From contig NZ_CP031727.1 of the NCBI RefSeq assembly GCF_008806955.1, positions 4,168,001 to 4,232,000 of the forward strand: DNA of 64,000 nucleotides, given 5' to 3'. Position numbers and translations under genes: made by a program. Below the pieces are notes generated by a model, which saw only the letters and a list, made by a program, of their open reading frames with translations, was not told where the DNA came from and did not search any database. The stretch comes from Cellvibrio sp. KY-YJ-3. Lineage in GTDB: Bacteria > Pseudomonadota > Gammaproteobacteria > Pseudomonadales > Cellvibrionaceae. This document shows, piece after piece, positions 7,276 to 55,724 of the stretch (the stretch's first letter is position 1; each line of letters begins with the position of its first letter).

Positions 7276-9003
7276 CTACAAAATCCACACTTCCACCCGG
7301 CGATTCATGCGCCTTCCCTCTTCCGTTTTACTGCTTGCCAGCGGCGCCTCATCGCCCATACCGCGCGCCACCAGTGGATAAATCCCACGCGCAATCAATT
7401 GCTGCTCCACCACCTTGGCGCGGCGTAACGACAATTCGCGATTCTCTTCACTCGCGCCCTCGTCATCAGTAAAACCAAACAACTGTACGCGCTTGGGGGA
7501 ATTAGCTTCCATGTATTTTACTAGCCGCTGTAAATCGCTGATGGACTTGGTATCCAACTCATCACTGCCATCTTTAAAACGAAAGTTGATTGATAATCTC
7601 TGCGAGCGATTGGTGAGCTGACGCATTTCTTCGGGGTAAAAATTATTATTAAAGGGTTGACCGGTTTTAATATTCTGCGAAACCAGACCTATATCCTCTA
7701 CGATACTCTGCCCGCGCTCTGTTGCACTGAAACGAACAAACTCTTCCGCTTCACTGTTGGTGCTCTTTTGCGGTAAATAAAAATACAGGCGGCGCGCGAG
7801 AGGATAATCCTCAGTGCTGACGGTGAAATGGGTTGGTACTATCGCCTTGGAACTTTTGGTGGAAGAGATTGCCAATAATTTTGCGCGACGCACATAAGGT
7901 AAACCGATAAACCCTATAGCCCCTTCATCTTTTGCCACCGCGTCTGACAGCTCGGTACTGGATTCAAAGCGCTTGGCCGTTAACGAAATGCTCGCACTGG
8001 ATGGTTCCAGTACCATGCTTTTAAACGAATCCCAAGTGCCGGAATTTTCATCGCGAGCGTAAAGGTTAATAGGGCGATCAGCACCGCCCAAGGCTGACCA
8101 ATTAGTAATTTCACCGGAAAATATTTTCACCAATTGCGGGATGGACAAACTACCCAGTGAATTACTGCTATTCACAATTATTGCTAAACCATCCAAACCA
8201 ATAATATGTTCCGCGCCAGGCTCGGTAAGATCGCCTTGTTTGCTGAGCAATAATTCGCGCTCCTGCTCTTTTACCCGCCGCGATGACATGCCTAATTCCG
8301 CTTGGCCGCTAAGCAAATCAGCAAATGCAGTGCTGGAGCCATGCGCATGAATTTCTACAAATTCAACGCGCCCGTTAATTTCGGCACTAACAGCTTTTTC
8401 CACCGGTGTTTTGCCCTGCTCTGTTTTAATATTGGTGCCGCCACGGGCCATTAAATAGGACTCTACCAACCGCGGCGCCAACTTTTCGCCCACCGTATTG
8501 GAACCATGAACGCGAAATAGTGGAGTGGTTGCCCGCGTGAGCACTCCATTAGCCGTCGCAGCAGTTTGTGTTAAAGAGCTGGCGGGTTTGATGCGGGTTT
8601 CACTAATCGCCTGAATCACAAATACTTCGCCGGCATCCAGCGGTAAAAATGAGCGCAGTAAATAACCGCCCAGAACCAACAGGAGTGAACAGGTAATTGC
8701 CGTCAGGCGTGTGAGACGAATACCTTTTTTGGTTTTTTTGGCAGGTTTGAATTGTTCACCAGTATGGGAGGCGGAGGTGATGGAATCCTCCAGTTGGCGC
8801 ACTTCCCACACCAGCGAGGTGAGTTCATCGTCGTTTGCGGTGAGCGCCTTTTCCAGCAACTCACTGCGGTACTCTTCATCCTTTAATACCATATTGAGCG
8901 GAATATGCATTTTTAAATGCACTTCACACAGCCGCTTCAAATTCCATAATTTATCGACCAGAGCGACGTTGTAATGAATATGTTTATGGGATTTGGGGGA
9001 CAT
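7276..9003 (-). CDS. Membrane-anchored PstS-like phosphate-binding domain fused to OmpA domain
   Basis: 575 residues in three parts. Residues 1-100 are charged, helical and cytoplasmic with no recognised domain; a single membrane helix lies at about 104-122 (ITCSLLLVLGGYLL). The periplasmic part has a phosphate-binding-protein-like domain (about 160-435: FRVHGSNTVGEKLAPRL, HGSSTAFADLLSGQAELGMSS, ARDENSGTWDSFK, AIGFIGLPYV) that matches PstS phosphate-loop positions, and a C-terminal OmpA-type peptidoglycan-binding domain (about 455-575: LFGFTDDEGASEENRELSLRRA, MNRRVEVW). Inferred role: phosphate sensing or capture between inner membrane and cell wall. It sits behind a strong PhoB-type promoter, and no pst transporter genes are beside it. 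The first 100 residues have no match I can name. Confidence 0.85.
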   Translation of the reverse strand: MSPKSHKHIHYNVALVDKLWNLKRLCEVHLKMHIPLNMVLKDEEYRSELLEKALTANDDELTSLVWEVRQLEDSITSASHTGEQFKPAKKTKKGIRLTRLTAITCSLLLVLGGYLLRSFLPLDAGEVFVIQAISETRIKPASSLTQTAATANGVLTRATTPLFRVHGSNTVGEKLAPRLVESYLMARGGTNIKTEQGKTPVEKAVSAEINGRVEFVEIHAHGSSTAFADLLSGQAELGMSSRRVKEQERELLLSKQGDLTEPGAEHIIGLDGLAIIVNSSNSLGSLSIPQLVKIFSGEITNWSALGGADRPINLYARDENSGTWDSFKSMVLEPSSASISLTAKRFESSTELSDAVAKDEGAIGFIGLPYVRRAKLLAISSTKSSKAIVPTHFTVSTEDYPLARRLYFYLPQKSTNSEAEEFVRFSATERGQSIVEDIGLVSQNIKTGQPFNNNFYPEEMRQLTNRSQRLSINFRFKDGSDELDTKSISDLQRLVKYMEANSPKRVQLFGFTDDEGASEENRELSLRRAKVVEQQLIARGIYPLVARGMGDEAPLASSKTEEGRRMNRRVEVWIL

Positions 9004-9033
9004 GGCGCTTCTCTAACAATTACGGAAGCGCGC

Positions 9034-9127
9034 ACTATAGAAATGTCAGATGACAATTAGATGACAATCCAAATAACAATTCAATTGGCAATCTGCATGA
9101 AAGTCCAAATGAAAGCACAGTTGAAAC
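9034..9127 (-). promoter_or_regulatory. PhoB-dependent promoter with tandem Pho boxes
   Basis: Read on the minus strand, the core is TTGTCAT-CTAA-TTGTCAT (9067-9050), a 7-4-7 Pho box, then exactly 10 bases, then a -10 TATAGT (9039-9034), the layout of E. coli phoA. Upstream the half-site motif repeats with 12-base period (units starting on the plus strand at 9061, 9073, 9085, 9097, 9109, 9121), increasingly degenerate (TTGTTAT, TTGCCAA, CTTTCAT, CTTTCAT, GTTTCAA). The start codon of the PstS-OmpA gene is about 24 bases beyond the predicted start of transcription. Confidence 0.85.
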
Positions 9128-49469: not shown

Positions 49470-49755
49470 AATGCCTCACTACAATAGGAGCCAGACAGCA
49501 TCTGGCCGGGGCGCCGGGATAAAGCGCGCATTCTAGCGGAATTACTCGCAGCTCACAGCAGCTTCTGTGCAGCCTGCTGCGTTCATCAAGACATTGGGCA
49601 GATTTCGCCAAGGTGGGGCAACTTAGGCTAGAATGCGATTCTGCACGACAGAGAGCGACAAGATACTTGCAACTATTCGTCAATTCGCCACTCTTATTTG
49701 ACTGACCCTGGCAGGACCCGGGGTTAAACCTTGAACACACGGACTTAACCATAAA

Positions 49756-50898
49756 ATGGCTTTCATAAATACCTACAAAACCTATCCACAACTCACCCTC
49801 TGCAGCCTGTTGCTTATAGCGCTGGGGCTATTGGGTGCCTGGTCTTACCACAGCAACGGCGAACACAATCAGCGCGAGCAAATTGGCCTTTATGGTCAGG
49901 TGCTGGCGAACAGTGCGGCGCGCCAAGCGGTCAACGCTACATTGCAGCAGGATCTGGTCAGCCTGCAGGCAATTTTGCTGGAAGTGGGCCAATATCCGAA
50001 TGTTATCGGCGCGACCATTCACAATGTGGAAAATAAACTGCTGGTGCAAAGCGGCTTTAAACCCAATCAGGTAATTAACGGGCGGCGCTACGATTTCTCG
50101 GCGCCCATTGCACTGCACAATAATGTCGCCGGCTATTTGGAAGTCTCGCTGGATGTGCCCCGTCACACCGAACGTGATTACCGTTTTTATCTGTTATGGA
50201 TGGCCGGTGTTTGTATTTCCCTGTTAATCATTTGGTGGTCGATTCAACGCCAGTGGTGGGCACAGTTAAAAGACAAGCTGCCCAGCACCAGCGAGATAGT
50301 CACGGCGGTGGTGGAAAAAATGCCCACCATCGAAGACATTCCCGAGCCAGAGCCGGAAGCCCCCAAACAAGTGTCCGTGCGCTTGAGTTTGGACATCACC
50401 AACATGAGCAAACTCTACCAACAGCTCAACAGCGAAAGTTTCGCGAGCGTGCTGCGCCGTTTTGAAAAGCAATTGCAAGGCGTGTTGAATTTGTACGATG
50501 GCCAGCGCCAGATGCTCTCGGGCGAAACACTCATTATCGATTTCACCGGTGAAGCCTTTTACGAGTGCAGTTTTCGCGCCGTCTGCGCTGCGCAATTGCT
50601 GAGCAACCTCGCGGGCAAAAACCCCAGCCCGCGTTTGCATTTGGCTGCCGCTGTACATGAATTATCAGCGCCAGTGAGTTCCCATAAATCACTGCTGAAA
50701 GATTTTGTGGTGCAACACAACAACTATTTAAAACCCGATAAGGGCGAAATTCTAATAAGCCAGCGCTTGATTGATGCCGACCTGCAAGAGCATTTGGACA
50801 TCATCAGCGACAGCGGCAAATTGGTTGGCTTAAAAGCACCCTATGCGTCATTGCTTGCCAAACAGGAAGAGCAGCTGACCCAAGCAGCCGCACAATAA
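49756..50898 (+). CDS. AhpA/YtjB (Smp) family inner-membrane protein
   Basis: 380 residues. TM1 about 13-30, a periplasmic PAS/Cache-like region (SAARQAVNATLQQDLVSLQAILLEVGQYPNVIGATIHN) that is characteristic of the Smp/YtjB family, TM2 about 147-166, and a cytoplasmic C-terminal domain (205-370) reminiscent of nucleotide-cyclase folds but without catalytic residues. The divergent serB neighbour supports the call, since ytjB adjoins serB in E. coli. The function is unclear. Confidence 0.82.
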   Translation: MAFINTYKTYPQLTLCSLLLIALGLLGAWSYHSNGEHNQREQIGLYGQVLANSAARQAVNATLQQDLVSLQAILLEVGQYPNVIGATIHNVENKLLVQSGFKPNQVINGRRYDFSAPIALHNNVAGYLEVSLDVPRHTERDYRFYLLWMAGVCISLLIIWWSIQRQWWAQLKDKLPSTSEIVTAVVEKMPTIEDIPEPEPEAPKQVSVRLSLDITNMSKLYQQLNSESFASVLRRFEKQLQGVLNLYDGQRQMLSGETLIIDFTGEAFYECSFRAVCAAQLLSNLAGKNPSPRLHLAAAVHELSAPVSSHKSLLKDFVVQHNNYLKPDKGEILISQRLIDADLQEHLDIISDSGKLVGLKAPYASLLAKQEEQLTQAAAQ

Positions 50899-50915
50899 AC
50901 CCTGCTCAATCATAA

Positions 50916-50966
50916 CAGTCACAGATTTGTCATGATTTCATCACCTAAGTGTCACAGCACAGTCAT
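50916..50966 (+). promoter_or_regulatory. Tandem Pho-box array upstream of OlsF-like gene
   Basis: Five 7-base half-sites at an exact 11-base period: CAGTCAC (50916), TTGTCAT (50927), TCATCAC (50938), GTGTCAC (50949), CAGTCAT (50960). Each is close to the PhoB half-site CTGTCAT/C, with 4-base AT-rich or mixed spacers. A clear -10 is not visible at the ideal distance (CAACAG after the last unit, TAACCT after the fourth). The array begins 18 bases after the ytjB stop. Confidence 0.8.
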
Positions 50967-51004
50967 AACCTCAGAGCAACAGTCCTGCTCAGGTTATGAC
51001 TATC

Positions 51005-52780
51005 ATGCTGAATATCGAACAATCCATTACCAATAAATTCCCCGGTTTTACCCAACAAGCGCCCATAGTGCGCAACTCCACCCTCAATATATTGCGCAAG
51101 CTCACCCATGAGCGTGAGATCAACGCGTTTTTGCGCGAGCATCAGGGCAATCGCGGTATCGATTTTATCGACCGCATTTTTGACTATTTTAACTTCAGTT
51201 ACAGCGTCTCCCAGCGCGAGCGTAATAATATTCCTGCGCAGGGGCGCGTGGTGATTATTGCCAACCACCCTATTGGTTCGCTCGATGGTTTAGCGCTGGT
51301 ACGTTTGGTAAGCGAAGTGCGCAAGGATGTAAAAATTATTGCCAACGATATGCTCATGACCTTTGAGCCACTACACGATTTATTACTGCCGCTCGATAAT
51401 ATGACGCGCGCGGCGTACAAGCAGAGTTATAAAAATATCCTGCAGGCACTGAACGACGAGCAAGCAGTTATTATCTTCCCCGCGGGCGAAGTCTCCCGCG
51501 CGAGCCCAAAAGGGATTCGCGATGGAAAATGGCAGGCGGGCTTTCTGCATTTTGCGCGCAAAACCCAGGCGCCCATTTTGCCGATTTTTGTTTCAGCGAA
51601 AAACTCACTGCTGTTTTACAGCGCCTCAATGATTTTCAAACCGCTCGCCACCGCGCTGCTCGCGCACGAAATGTTTAACAAACAATCGGCGGAAATTAAA
51701 TTCCGTATTGGTGAGGTGATTCCCTACCAATCACTGGAATCCGATCAGCTGGCCGACAAGGCACTGATCAAACGTCTTAAAAAACATCTCTATAAAATTG
51801 GCAAAGGCAAAAACAAAAATAATCAGCCAACGCCATTTATTACCGAAAAAACCATCGCCCACCCGGAAGACCGCGCCGCGTTAAAAAAGGAATTCAAAAA
51901 CGCCCAATTAATTGGCAGCACCCGCGACAATCACCAGATTTTTTTATGCGACTACAAACAGCATCCCGTGGTGTTGCGCGAAGTGGGCCGCTTGCGCGAA
52001 CAAACCTTCCGCTTGGTAGGTGAAGGCACTGGTAGCCGCCGCGATTTGGACAAATACGATCACTACTATCGCCACCTGGTATTGTGGGATGAAGAAAAAC
52101 TGTGCATCGCGGGCGCTTACCGCTTGGGTGAAGCCCATAAATTAATGCTGAAAAAAGGCGCTGAAGCACTCTACACCAACGAGCTATTTGACTTTCATCC
52201 AGCGCTTACGCCCTACCTGGAACAAGGGCTGGAATTAGGCCGCAGTTTTGTGCACCCGGATTACTGGGGCAAAGCCAGTTTGGATTATTTATGGCAGGGT
52301 TTAGGCGCTTATTTAAATCATACCCCCGAAGTTCGCTATGTATTTGGCCCGGTGAGCATGAGCGCGCACTACCCCAAACCATTGCGCGATTTATTGGTGT
52401 TTTATTACGAGCGCTACTATCAAAAATATGCCGATGAGAAAAGTGAAACACTGGCAGAAGGTAAACACCCACACCATATCGATGAAGATGCCTTAATCGA
52501 TTTGCAACAGCGTTTTGCCAGCCTTAATGCTGAGCAAGGTTTTGCGGTATTGCAGGAAGCGTTTAATCAAGCGGACTGTAAAATTCCAGTATTGTTTAAA
52601 CAATATGCCGCACTTTACGACGAAGGCGGCTACCACCTGCTAGCGTTCAGTGTTGACTCAGAATTTGGCAATTGTGTAGATGGTTTATTTATTGGTGACC
52701 TGCAATTTATGAAAGCCGCCAAACGCGCCCGCTATTTAGGCACTACCAATTCAACCGCTGCCGAAAAGTCTGAAGGTTGA
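51005..52780 (+). CDS. OlsF-like bifunctional O-/N-acyltransferase (ornithine lipid type)
   Basis: 591 residues. N-terminal half: PlsC-like lysophospholipid acyltransferase with IIANHPIGSLDGLAL (block I His/Asp), DNMTRAAYKQS and VIIFPAGEVSR. C-terminal half (about 290-575): GNAT-type N-acyltransferase of the hemolysin/OlsB kind (LREVGRLREQTFRLVGEG, LELGRSFVHPDYWGKASLDYLWQG, YVFGPVSMSA). This order is that described for OlsF, which makes ornithine lipid by N-acylating ornithine and then adding the second acyl chain; ornithine lipids replace phospholipids under phosphate limitation. The Pho-box array upstream fits. Start may also be 50996; AGG lies 9-12 bases before 51005. The 3' end overlaps the next convergent gene by 49 bases. 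Confidence 0.75.
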   Translation: MLNIEQSITNKFPGFTQQAPIVRNSTLNILRKLTHEREINAFLREHQGNRGIDFIDRIFDYFNFSYSVSQRERNNIPAQGRVVIIANHPIGSLDGLALVRLVSEVRKDVKIIANDMLMTFEPLHDLLLPLDNMTRAAYKQSYKNILQALNDEQAVIIFPAGEVSRASPKGIRDGKWQAGFLHFARKTQAPILPIFVSAKNSLLFYSASMIFKPLATALLAHEMFNKQSAEIKFRIGEVIPYQSLESDQLADKALIKRLKKHLYKIGKGKNKNNQPTPFITEKTIAHPEDRAALKKEFKNAQLIGSTRDNHQIFLCDYKQHPVVLREVGRLREQTFRLVGEGTGSRRDLDKYDHYYRHLVLWDEEKLCIAGAYRLGEAHKLMLKKGAEALYTNELFDFHPALTPYLEQGLELGRSFVHPDYWGKASLDYLWQGLGAYLNHTPEVRYVFGPVSMSAHYPKPLRDLLVFYYERYYQKYADEKSETLAEGKHPHHIDEDALIDLQQRFASLNAEQGFAVLQEAFNQADCKIPVLFKQYAALYDEGGYHLLAFSVDSEFGNCVDGLFIGDLQFMKAAKRARYLGTTNSTAAEKSEG

Positions 52781-53643
52781 AACCAGTAACGCGGATTGGT
52801 GTGATCGGTATCAGGGGAAAGTTGTGGGTTGGGAATGTTAATTATATAGCGTGGTGAATCCTTTTTATTCAACGGAAAAACATGCGCTGTAAGTGGATGA
52901 TTTGTCATGAACTCAATCATCTCGCCACTATCAATTATTTTTTCCAAACCATCCTCAATCCACTTGGCCAAGTACTCGTTATCGTGTTTGACAAAAAAAT
53001 AAACGGCAAAGGGGTAATGCAGCACTAAGGTTTTCTGTAGCTGTAAGTCTGGATAAATATCACTACGCTGACTTAGCTCTGCCTGTGCCTCAAAATAACC
53101 ACGCGAAAAAAAGTCGCAGCGTTTGGCGACCACTTGTTGAAACAGCCCTTCAAATAACGCAACCTCTGTCACACGCAAGGACGCGGCGCGCATAATGTGA
53201 ACATCAGGCCAATTTATGCCCTGACAGCCGAGATATTTTTTTAGCTGTTCATATTCAACAATAGCATCAAACTTTTCCTGATTATCACGATGAATGATAA
53301 ACCGGCGATAACCCAACAACCCACGATCCAGCGGGATACGAATGGCCCGAAGTTGACGTTCACGCTCAAGGCTAGTCCCCATCCAGTAGACATCCACCAA
53401 ACCGCCACGATTTAGTTCAGAGATGGCTCGCTCCTGCTCCATCAAGGTAGTTTCCCGCAATTCGGGCACGGCGCGCCCGGCAGCGCCATTAATCAAGGTC
53501 ATGTGTAAAAGCTGCACGTAATAATCCCGTGCTATATCCATATTTGGCTGCTGGCGAGGTATTTTTATCACGGACAACTCAGCCGCCGCCAGATTGACGG
53601 CAACCGCTAGCAGTAAAATGCCCAACCCGGCGCTCGCCCTCAT
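52732..53643 (-). CDS. Solitary periplasmic substrate-binding-like protein (paralogue 1)
   Basis: 303 residues from the ATG at 53643 (GGGG 6 bases upstream), with a signal peptide ending about LAAA. Fold pattern of a type II periplasmic binding protein: ARDYYVQLLHMTLINGAAGR, MEQERAISELNRGGLVDVYWMGTS, RAIRIPLDRGLLGYRRFII, CDFFSRGYFEAQAEL, TLVLHYPFAVYFFVKHDN, terminal NPRYWFQPSDF. No transport or chemotaxis gene is adjacent. One of three tandem paralogues; it is closer to number 2 than to number 3. Substrate unknown. Confidence 0.8.
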   Translation of the reverse strand: MRASAGLGILLLAVAVNLAAAELSVIKIPRQQPNMDIARDYYVQLLHMTLINGAAGRAVPELRETTLMEQERAISELNRGGLVDVYWMGTSLERERQLRAIRIPLDRGLLGYRRFIIHRDNQEKFDAIVEYEQLKKYLGCQGINWPDVHIMRAASLRVTEVALFEGLFQQVVAKRCDFFSRGYFEAQAELSQRSDIYPDLQLQKTLVLHYPFAVYFFVKHDNEYLAKWIEDGLEKIIDSGEMIEFMTNHPLTAHVFPLNKKDSPRYIINIPNPQLSPDTDHTNPRYWFQPSDFSAAVELVVPK

Positions 53644-53770
53644 GCCCTTCCCCACACCACTAACCTGGATTAATTAAATCGATGGTTGTCATAAAATCCC
53701 AATACTATTTTTAAGTATAGGCTAGCCCGGCAATATCCAAATGATCCACGCGAAAGCACTGTGTCAATGG

Positions 53771-54652
53771 CTACTCAAAATCACTGGGCTGAAACCAGTA
53801 ACGCGAATTGGAGTAGTTTGTATCGACAGGTAAAAAAGAATTGGGGATGTGAATGGTATGTCGGGGCGCGAGGGTTTTATTGAGCGGAAAAACATGGCTG
53901 GTGAGCGGATGGTTTTTCATATAAGCGAGAAATTCACCTTTCTCGATCATTTTCTCCAAGCCCTGCTCAATCCAGCGCGCTAATTCTTCGTTGTCGCGCC
54001 CCACAAAAAAGTACACGGCAAAGGGATAATGCAATACCAGGGTTTTGTGCTCAATTAATTCAGGGTAGGAGTTTTTGCGCTGGGTTAATTCGGGTAAGGC
54101 TTCGTAATAACCACGAGGAAAATAATCGCAGCGTTTGGCTACCACTTGTTGATACAGCCCTTCCAACACCGCCACCTCAGTCACGCGCAAGGCAGCGGCG
54201 CGCATAATATCCACATCCGGCCAATCCAGCCCCTGACAAGCGAGCAGGCGTTTTAAATCCGCACCACTTTTCACGGCGTCAAATTCCCGATGGCGATCAG
54301 CGCGAATGATAAAACGGCGATAACCAATTAAACCGCGATCCACCGGGATACGAATTGCACGCAGTTTTTGTTCGCGCTCAGTGCTGGTGCCCATCCAGTA
54401 GACATCAATACTGGCTCCGCGATTTAATTCATAAATCGCACGTCCCTGCTCCATAACGCTGGTCTCGCGCAATTCCGGAATGTCACGCCCGGCAGCGCCG
54501 TTAACAAGCGCGAGACGTAATAACTGGGTGTAATAGTCCTGTGCTACCTGCGAGTCGGGTTGTGGTTTAGGGATATTTAACACCGACGGCAAGGCTAATG
54601 CGGGTAGCGCAAGCAGCAGCAAAAGTGCCAGACCAAAGCGCTGAACCGTCAT
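53771..54652 (-). CDS. Solitary periplasmic substrate-binding-like protein (paralogue 2)
   Basis: 293 residues from the ATG at 54652, with GGAG 6 bases before it. Signal peptide (FGLALLLLLALPALALP). Shares with paralogue 1 nearly the whole framework: VNGAAGRDIPELRETSVMEQ, IDVYWMGTSTEREQKLRAI, DRGLIGYRRFII, ALRVTEVAVLEGLYQQVVAK, CDYFPRGYYEALPEL and the terminal NSRYWFQPSDF. The intergenic gaps of 127 and 169 bases suggest that each copy may have its own promoter. Confidence 0.8.
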   Translation of the reverse strand: MTVQRFGLALLLLLALPALALPSVLNIPKPQPDSQVAQDYYTQLLRLALVNGAAGRDIPELRETSVMEQGRAIYELNRGASIDVYWMGTSTEREQKLRAIRIPVDRGLIGYRRFIIRADRHREFDAVKSGADLKRLLACQGLDWPDVDIMRAAALRVTEVAVLEGLYQQVVAKRCDYFPRGYYEALPELTQRKNSYPELIEHKTLVLHYPFAVYFFVGRDNEELARWIEQGLEKMIEKGEFLAYMKNHPLTSHVFPLNKTLAPRHTIHIPNSFLPVDTNYSNSRYWFQPSDFE

Positions 54653-54821
54653 TAGCCACTCCCTATAAACAAACATGCCATGATTAACGTTTAACCAGTA
54701 TAGGCCAGCGCCCTCAGTGCGCTAGGCAATCTTAAATCACACAGTACAAACATCACTGTTTTTTATAAAATCAGGCTCAACCAAACGCGCGCTACACAAG
54801 CAGGCGCGGTTATTGTTTAGG

Positions 54822-55724
54822 TTATTGCGCCTTGGCAGAGGGAATAAAATCGGCGGGTTGAAACCAATAACGCGCGTCGAACTGATCGGCACTATCGGGC
54901 AAACTGTCGTTGGGAATATGGATGATGCGCCGCTCGGCGAGGCGCGCCAATGGAAAAGCGCGGCGGGTATGCGGGTGCTGTTGTATATGCGCAAGCAATT
55001 CACCATCGTCAATCATTTGCTCCAAACCTTCCTGCACCCAGGCCGCCAATGCGTGATTATCCTGACGCACAAAAAAGTAGACTGCAAAAGGGTAATGTAA
55101 AATCAGTGGTTCGTAGGCAACCAACTCGGGAAATTCACCCGCCCGCTTGTTCATTTCAATGCGAATTTCATGAAACCCGCGCGGAAAATAATCACAGCGC
55201 CCGGCAGCAATTTGTTTAAATAAATTTTCGTAACCAGTACTGGTTTTTACTTTCAAATCGGCAGCGCGCAGAATGCCGGTGTCCGGCCAATGAGTACCCT
55301 GACAAGCGGTAAATTTTTGCAGCTCGGCAAGGCTGTGCACCTGTTCAAATTCAGCCACACGCTTGCGGTGTACCACAAATTGGCGATAGCCCATCAACCC
55401 GCGCTCCAGTGGAATCGGGATAGCTCGCAGCGCCGCATTGCGATTTTTATCCGTCCCCATCCAATAAATATCGATTGTGCGGCCGCGCATTAATTCTTGT
55501 ACCGCACGATCCTGTTCCATATCCATCGTCGGCAACAATGCCGGTACAGGCCGCCCTTTCGCGGCTTTGGTCAAGGCTTTGTGTAGCAGTTCGGTGTAAT
55601 AGCCATAGGAGGTATCCAAATCCGACCTGGGCTTGGGAATACGCAATTCCGCCGTGCTGGCAACCGCGAGCCCACACCAAAGCCACAAGCAGCTGGCAAC
55701 AATAAAAAACGCGCGTAATTTCAT
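54822..55724 (-). CDS. Solitary periplasmic substrate-binding-like protein (paralogue 3)
   Basis: 300 residues from the ATG at 55724; the longer open frame upstream runs into the mpl region and is spurious. Signal peptide (FFIVASCLWLWCGLAVAS). Same framework as its two neighbours but more diverged: DLDTSYGYYTELLHKALTKA, MEQDRAVQELMRGRTIDIYWMGTD, LERGLMGYRQFVVHRKR, CDYFPRGFHEIRIEM, LILHYPFAVYFFVRQDN and terminal DARYWFQPADF followed by IPSAKAQ. Divergent from mpl. Substrate unknown. Confidence 0.8.
   Translation of the reverse strand: MKLRAFFIVASCLWLWCGLAVASTAELRIPKPRSDLDTSYGYYTELLHKALTKAAKGRPVPALLPTMDMEQDRAVQELMRGRTIDIYWMGTDKNRNAALRAIPIPLERGLMGYRQFVVHRKRVAEFEQVHSLAELQKFTACQGTHWPDTGILRAADLKVKTSTGYENLFKQIAAGRCDYFPRGFHEIRIEMNKRAGEFPELVAYEPLILHYPFAVYFFVRQDNHALAAWVQEGLEQMIDDGELLAHIQQHPHTRRAFPLARLAERRIIHIPNDSLPDSADQFDARYWFQPADFIPSAKAQ

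Follow-up and report, generated by a model that had tools for sequence, protein, structure and literature searches.

The olsF gene of Cellvibrio sp. KY-YJ-3 encodes, judging by its sequence, a bifunctional enzyme of the OlsF (ornithine lipid synthase) family, and the DNA in front of it suggests that the gene is controlled by two keys. We favor, with moderate confidence, a reading in which transcription depends on PhoB and an RNA hairpin locks the gene against read-through from upstream. The features on which this reading draws are listed below, with coordinates in the window, that is, the whole 64,000-nucleotide stretch analysed.

49756..50898, + strand: co-directional upstream gene between serB and olsF, encoding a 380-aa protein; proposed source of read-through RNA
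50917..50955, + strand: four PhoB-type half-sites in 11-bp steps (AGTCAC, TGTCAT, CATCAC, TGTCAC), equal to two tandem Pho boxes
50961..50966, + strand: fifth half-site-like sequence AGTCAT, within the spacer that precedes the −10 box; it also forms the outer portion of the 5′ arm of the hairpin
50961..50978, + strand: hairpin 5′ arm (end of the spacer, −10 box, discriminator); apart from its final base it lies ahead of the predicted start and would thus be missing from the predicted Pho transcript
50966..50971, + strand: −10 box TAACCT, separated from half-site 4 by exactly 10 nt
50978, + strand: predicted PhoB-dependent transcription start, the seventh base after the −10 box, placed by spacing
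50986..51001, + strand: hairpin 3′ arm, which holds the Shine-Dalgarno sequence
50991..50993, + strand: Shine-Dalgarno core AGG; in read-through RNA it is predicted to pair with the −10 box letters CCT
51005..52780, + strand: olsF, bifunctional ornithine lipid synthase, 591 aa, with the conserved start ATG 51005

The olsF frame encodes 594 aa from an in-frame ATG at 50996 and 591 aa from the ATG at 51005. Of 78 family loci outside genus g3, 76 have by rule a start matching 51005 (M-L/I-N/D-I-E and similar), and an ATG matching 50996 is present only in some family loci; the upstream ATG was rejected as the start since its position is unconserved compared with ATG 51005. The product scored 821.3 bits against the OlsF equivalog model NF052615 (cut-off 620, residues 4–581 of 594) and carries in one chain two PlsC-like matches (PF19576, residues 24–249, and PF01553, 74–199) and a GNAT domain (PF13444, 333–434), which bears out two claims of the preliminary description, namely a PlsC+GNAT bifunctional acyltransferase and its OlsF-like identity. 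Two OlsB models remained below their cut-offs, and a search of solved-structure sequences returned only weak, chance-like matches (best E 0.086). The gene is single-copy in this genome and occurs in 21/21 genomes of the genus. On the opposite strand, 3′ of olsF (52732–55700), lie three tandem proteins of about 300 aa that look alike by eye; none of the three has an NCBIfam match, and the one scanned against Pfam has none there either.

The Pho box consensus consists of TGTCA-type half-sites in direct repeats 11 bp apart, and the array upstream of olsF fits this arrangement. The five PhoB-type half-sites with exact 11-bp spacing that had been described earlier were all found between 50917 and 50966, with AGTCAC starting at 50917, TGTCAT at 50928, CATCAC at 50939, TGTCAC at 50950, and AGTCAT at 50961; all five are in register, but only four appear to act, as the fifth sits in the 10-nt spacer before the −10 box. 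It was rejected as an equal member of the array for this position and because it is mostly absent from other genera with the same promoter. Loose half-site pairs (≤2 mismatches) were not enriched in the window (37 found vs. 49 expected by chance), so the signal of the array is the run in register. The genome (4.49 Mb, single contig) contains three matches to TCAY repeated four times at 11 bp, two of them overlapping in the olsF array and one at 3574290, and the reversed control pattern gave 0 matches in the same 4.49 Mb. Five TCAY in 11-bp register occur nowhere else in the genome, and a genome search for GTCAY-GTCAY-TCAY at 11 bp likewise returned the olsF array only.

We then scored the array in relatives. 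OlsF matches were present in 119 genomes of the family; 78 loci outside g3 were fetched, and the 76 with a start assigned by rule were scored. The array and the −10 box precede olsF in 70/76 of these loci, own locus included (shuffle p ≤ 0.02; floor of the test p 0.005). This scoring leaves out g3, from which 20/39 homologues (37–40% identity) were fetched, and two other matches that were not fetched. The g3 homologues (L113–L132) have coding-looking sequence in front and no Pho array by eye. Beyond the family, loci were assigned to 23 of 63 matches; these homologues come from other families of the order, and 19 of them carry the array at p ≤ 0.02. From these sequences, PhoB control of olsF looks old in the order.

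The distance from the array to the −10 box is fixed as well. When the array was placed by half-sites alone to avoid bias, a TAnnnT hexamer stood at offset 10 in 68/93 homologues (76 family loci and 17 from other families) and at any other offset in three at most. In the earlier scoring of the 76 family loci, the best-scoring register took the spacer half-site as the fourth in L015, L018, and L020; for the analyses of the hairpin these three were manually given the register of their genus. In genus g9 the hexamer at offset 10 is CAATCT or CATCCT. The −10 box of E. coli phoA lies about 10 nt past the last acting half-site. In the KY-YJ-3 genome, pstS has TGTCAT + 10 nt + TAAAGT, the gene at 7.3–9.0 kb of the window (the 9-kb gene) has TGTCAT + 10 nt + TATAGT, and phoB has TGTAAC + 10 nt + TTAAAT, a weaker match whose hexamer is not TAnnnT. 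One PhoB of this genome exceeds the TIGR02154 cut-off (361.8 bits, cut-off 296.2). Control of olsF by PhoB is thus supported by the array, the fixed −10 distance, the similar layout at pstS, the 9-kb gene, and (less closely) phoB, and the one PhoB above its cut-off. The earlier prediction of membrane-lipid remodelling under phosphate stress is upheld, at the level of sequence, by the array, the −10 spacing, and the OlsF model, and once phosphate is exhausted, production of a phosphorus-free membrane lipid probably begins. As a side observation, the 9-kb gene (7276–9003, − strand, promoter near 9020–9070) encodes a PstS-like domain (below the family cut-off) fused to a C-terminal OmpA-like domain, and its promoter has two perfect half-sites 11 bp apart and degenerate earlier ones at 12-bp steps.

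The Pho-driven reading of the preliminary description therefore stands for the array, the enzyme, and the prediction, but it is incomplete: it overlooked a conserved inverted repeat (50961–50978/50986–51001) between the array and the gene, which links the promoter to the Shine-Dalgarno sequence. Folded as RNA, 50955–51010 reaches −25.4 kcal/mol vs. −10.2 ± 2.6 for shuffled sequences (z −5.8; 0/200 shuffles as good), and the predicted open fraction of the Shine-Dalgarno sequence at this locus is 0.03 in the long RNA vs. 0.41 in the short RNA. If transcription is taken to begin at the seventh base past the −10 box, the 5′ arm has its last paired base between −4 and +1 in 35/44 loci with pairing ≥0.5, most commonly at −1 (16 loci); the arm reaches +3 or further in 6/44 and stops at −7 or before in 3/44. 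Since the arm ends at about the predicted start, a transcript from the Pho promoter would lack it, and only read-through RNA would hide the Shine-Dalgarno sequence. This boundary is soft evidence, because short leaders partly force the place of the loop and the start is predicted from spacing.

The letters of the stem vary within the genus while the pairing stays (CTTGTAGG/CCTACAAG, CCTCTGCGG/CCGCAGAGG, CCTTGC/GCAAGG). When arms (−10 to −1) were exchanged among loci, own arms paired better than permuted ones in nine Cellvibrio clade representatives (−13.3 vs. −9.2 ± 0.9; z −4.6), in 30 loci outside the genus (−8.9 vs. −6.4 ± 0.4; z −6.6), and in all 39 together (z −9.5), with p at the floor of the test (5e-5) in each of the three sets; the 39 representatives were chosen by us from the 70 loci. 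Arms with eight extra upstream bases gave z −4.4 for the nine clades, −4.2 for the 30 loci outside (p 0.00035), and −8.0 for the 39. Compared with shuffled leaders, pairing reached p ≤ 0.05 in 38/70 loci (20/21 in the genus, 18/49 outside), and two neighbouring segments of the same promoters did so in 2/70 and 6/70; when loci are averaged by genus, a modest effect is left (z −1.1, p 0.007, 21 genera). In the inner stem, 92/119 cells are paired vs. 70.1 ± 4.3 after permutation (maximum 87 in 5000 permutations), and one position shows four Watson-Crick types. These counts cover 17 distinct arm pairs from 24 loci, three from another genus, with arms anchored at the last AGG (else AAG) because a MAFFT alignment of the leaders misplaced the 3′ arm of one clade; kinship among the sequences inflates them, and the cross-genus arm exchange agrees in direction.

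Nineteen of 30 named loci were also run, one of them without a start, and 8/18 reached p ≤ 0.05: Cellvibrio sp. UBA7671, C. mixtus J3-8, Gilvimarinus chinensis, Marinimicrobium agarilyticum, two Pseudoteredinibacter, and two Aestuariicella. Values above 0.05 were obtained for Cellvibrio sp. OA-2007 (0.15), Cellvibrio sp. 79 (0.065), Marinibactrum (0.085), Exilibacterium, two Pseudomaricurvus, Marinagarivorans, Thalassocella, and two Cycloclasticus; most of the named loci are apparently the same genomes as in the family set, so this sample is not independent. In other families of the order, pairing was seen in only 2/19 array-bearing homologues. The compensatory changes in the two arms indicate that the complementarity is kept by selection.

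A lock against read-through would act on RNA from the gene upstream. Its 380-aa protein has no Pfam or NCBIfam match, and a homologue lies upstream of olsF in 55/70 family loci, sometimes more than 700 bp away. There is no terminator-like site on the + strand between this gene and olsF. Mean pairing to the untranscribed arm was 0.64 in the 57 loci whose upstream gene is adjacent and co-directional, vs. 0.17 in the 11 loci with a separated upstream gene or an opposed gene (row p 2e-5). The same comparison gave 0.53 vs. 0.17 outside the genus (p 4e-4) and 0.46 (19) vs. 0.18 (8) by genus means (p 0.007). The comparison omits two loci that lie at contig ends; its orientation classes were drawn up once the values were already known, and its gene calls are simple open frames. 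The mere presence of the upstream homologue (55 vs. 15 loci) gave p 0.076 for pairing, and the co-directional genera g7, g40, g41, and g44 have mean pairing ≤0.11. The orientation of the neighbour backs the lock as support, not as proof.

Other Pho promoters served as controls. Two half-sites + 10 nt + TAnnnT occur at 63 places in 20/21 Cellvibrio genomes, of which some may be chance since the reversed pattern gives 7. Fifty-five of the 63 were examined, the other eight being pstS, olsF, or the 9-kb gene already covered; the 55 comprise 11 pstS promoters, eight without a downstream open frame, four that gave no row, and 32 in front of other genes, with guessed start codons. Pairing between the −10 region and the start region reached p ≤ 0.05 at 1/32 of these other promoters and at 0/11 of those that follow a co-directional open frame at a distance of up to 300 bp, so a co-directional neighbour alone brings no hairpin. 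In the KY-YJ-3 genome, such pairing gave p 0.61 and 0.69 at pstS, 0.84 at phoB, and 0.12 at the 9-kb gene.

The pstS gene, our intended negative control, reached p ≤ 0.05 in 10/21 Cellvibrio genomes and in 5/11 of the pattern-based set, an outcome that hinges on the chosen start codon and on which the two analyses disagree for one genome. All 11 pstS rows of the pattern-based set have a co-directional open frame upstream. At pstS of other Cellvibrio genomes (L218–L224), the −10/discriminator segment is complementary to the start region, as at olsF, and in one clade a ten-base stretch that runs up to −1 can pair with the region of the start codon, as seen in L220 and L223. Because pstS shows the pairing in part of Cellvibrio, the device is not confined to olsF; this weakens explanations specific to olsF and would be in line with a solution that recurs at some PhoB genes. 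There is about an even chance, in our estimate, that in Cellvibrio and some relatives certain PhoB genes behind a co-directional neighbour carry a two-key lock written in different letters for each gene, nearly genus-wide at olsF and partly at pstS. On that reading a single stretch of DNA would serve twice, as core promoter for the active message and, within the silent read-through message, as the inhibitory strand, a dual role to which we give equal odds of being right or wrong.

In the mechanism that we propose, phosphorylated PhoB would bind the four half-sites at low phosphate and recruit RNA polymerase to TAACCT; transcription beginning near 50978 would yield a leader of about 27 nt with a free Shine-Dalgarno sequence, and the olsF product would presumably be ornithine lipid. 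When phosphate is replete, any read-through RNA from the co-directional upstream gene would carry the −10 box and the discriminator, which would fold onto the Shine-Dalgarno sequence and block translation. The parts of this scheme that can be read directly from the letters are the array, the fixed −10 spacing, the OlsF membership, the compensatory complementarity, and the arm boundary near the predicted start. A simpler reading, in which olsF is plainly Pho-regulated and the inverted repeat serves no separate function, seems unlikely to us. In Vibrio cholerae, olsF is known to be under PhoB control (PMC12186959 and PMC13157583), and the array stands without significant pairing in 32/70 family loci and 17/19 from other families, both as this reading would have it; yet the pairing survives changes of stem letters, is concentrated in the −10/discriminator segment, and is missing at 31/32 other Pho promoters.

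The strong fold over the Shine-Dalgarno sequence would also suit a hairpin in the working mRNA, begun further upstream and acting as a translational switch responsive to temperature, a ligand, a small RNA, or a protein, as would the helix 6 nt beyond the predicted start in four loci (L065, L069, L092, and L099). We hold such a switch to be distinctly improbable, given the fixed −10 distance in 68/93 homologues and a 5′ arm that stops between −4 and +1 in 35/44 hairpins; moreover, no sigma-70-like promoter was found in 49700–51100, although the same scan misses the Pho promoter too. The inverted repeat covers the core promoter, and the palindrome might therefore be an operator in the DNA, overlapping the −10 box and bound by a dimeric repressor. 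Its inner half varies by clade while the symmetry is kept, a pattern more in keeping with base pairing than with a fixed protein site, and we rate the operator the least probable of these alternatives. It is only slightly more credible, and still very unlikely, that the protein makes a different aminolipid, such as a glycine lipid, instead of ornithine lipid: its two halves show similarity to GlsA and GlsB of glycine-lipid synthesis as well, but at 177 (cut-off 260) and 157 bits (cut-off 300), both below threshold, vs. 821 bits (cut-off 620) for OlsF.

A search confined to a library of open papers found no report of a promoter-in-hairpin lock in a Pho regulon and, by title and the beginning of the abstract, no study joining Cellvibrio with ornithine lipid synthesis. 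The new part is the conserved promoter-to-Shine-Dalgarno complementarity, phosphate-controlled OlsF itself being already known in V. cholerae. Bacterial genes are crowded, and a gene that is off can be crossed by its neighbour's RNA. If the proposed lock is real, a core promoter doubling as a silencing strand would explain how a stress gene is kept tightly off without a terminator, and one could search other regulons for such locks by complementarity between core promoter and start region.

Within the same genome, pstS, phoB, and the 9-kb gene resemble olsF in having a half-site, 10 nt, and a −10-like hexamer, but differ from it in showing no significant pairing between the −10 region and the start region. 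For the transposase of IS10/Tn10, read-through RNA folds over the start region and RNA from its own promoter does not; protection from outside transcription would be common to both systems, whereas IS10/Tn10 is a mobile element. The claim that OlsF responds to phosphate in some Vibrio agrees with published work: according to PMC12186959 and PMC13157583, V. cholerae VC0489 is a bifunctional OlsF induced by phosphate limitation via PhoB. It is comparable by enzyme and control, as a PhoB-controlled OlsF from another bacterial family. In phage T4, longer transcripts of the genes e, soc, 49, and I-TevI fold and hide the Shine-Dalgarno sequence (PMC3014915). The late promoters of gene e lie within the stretch encoding the 5′ strand, and their transcripts, without that strand, are translated well (PMC3014915). 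The lock proposed for olsF would follow the plan of gene e; in T4 this serves phage timing and was measured experimentally, whereas at olsF it would belong to a chromosomal stress regulon and is a prediction only.
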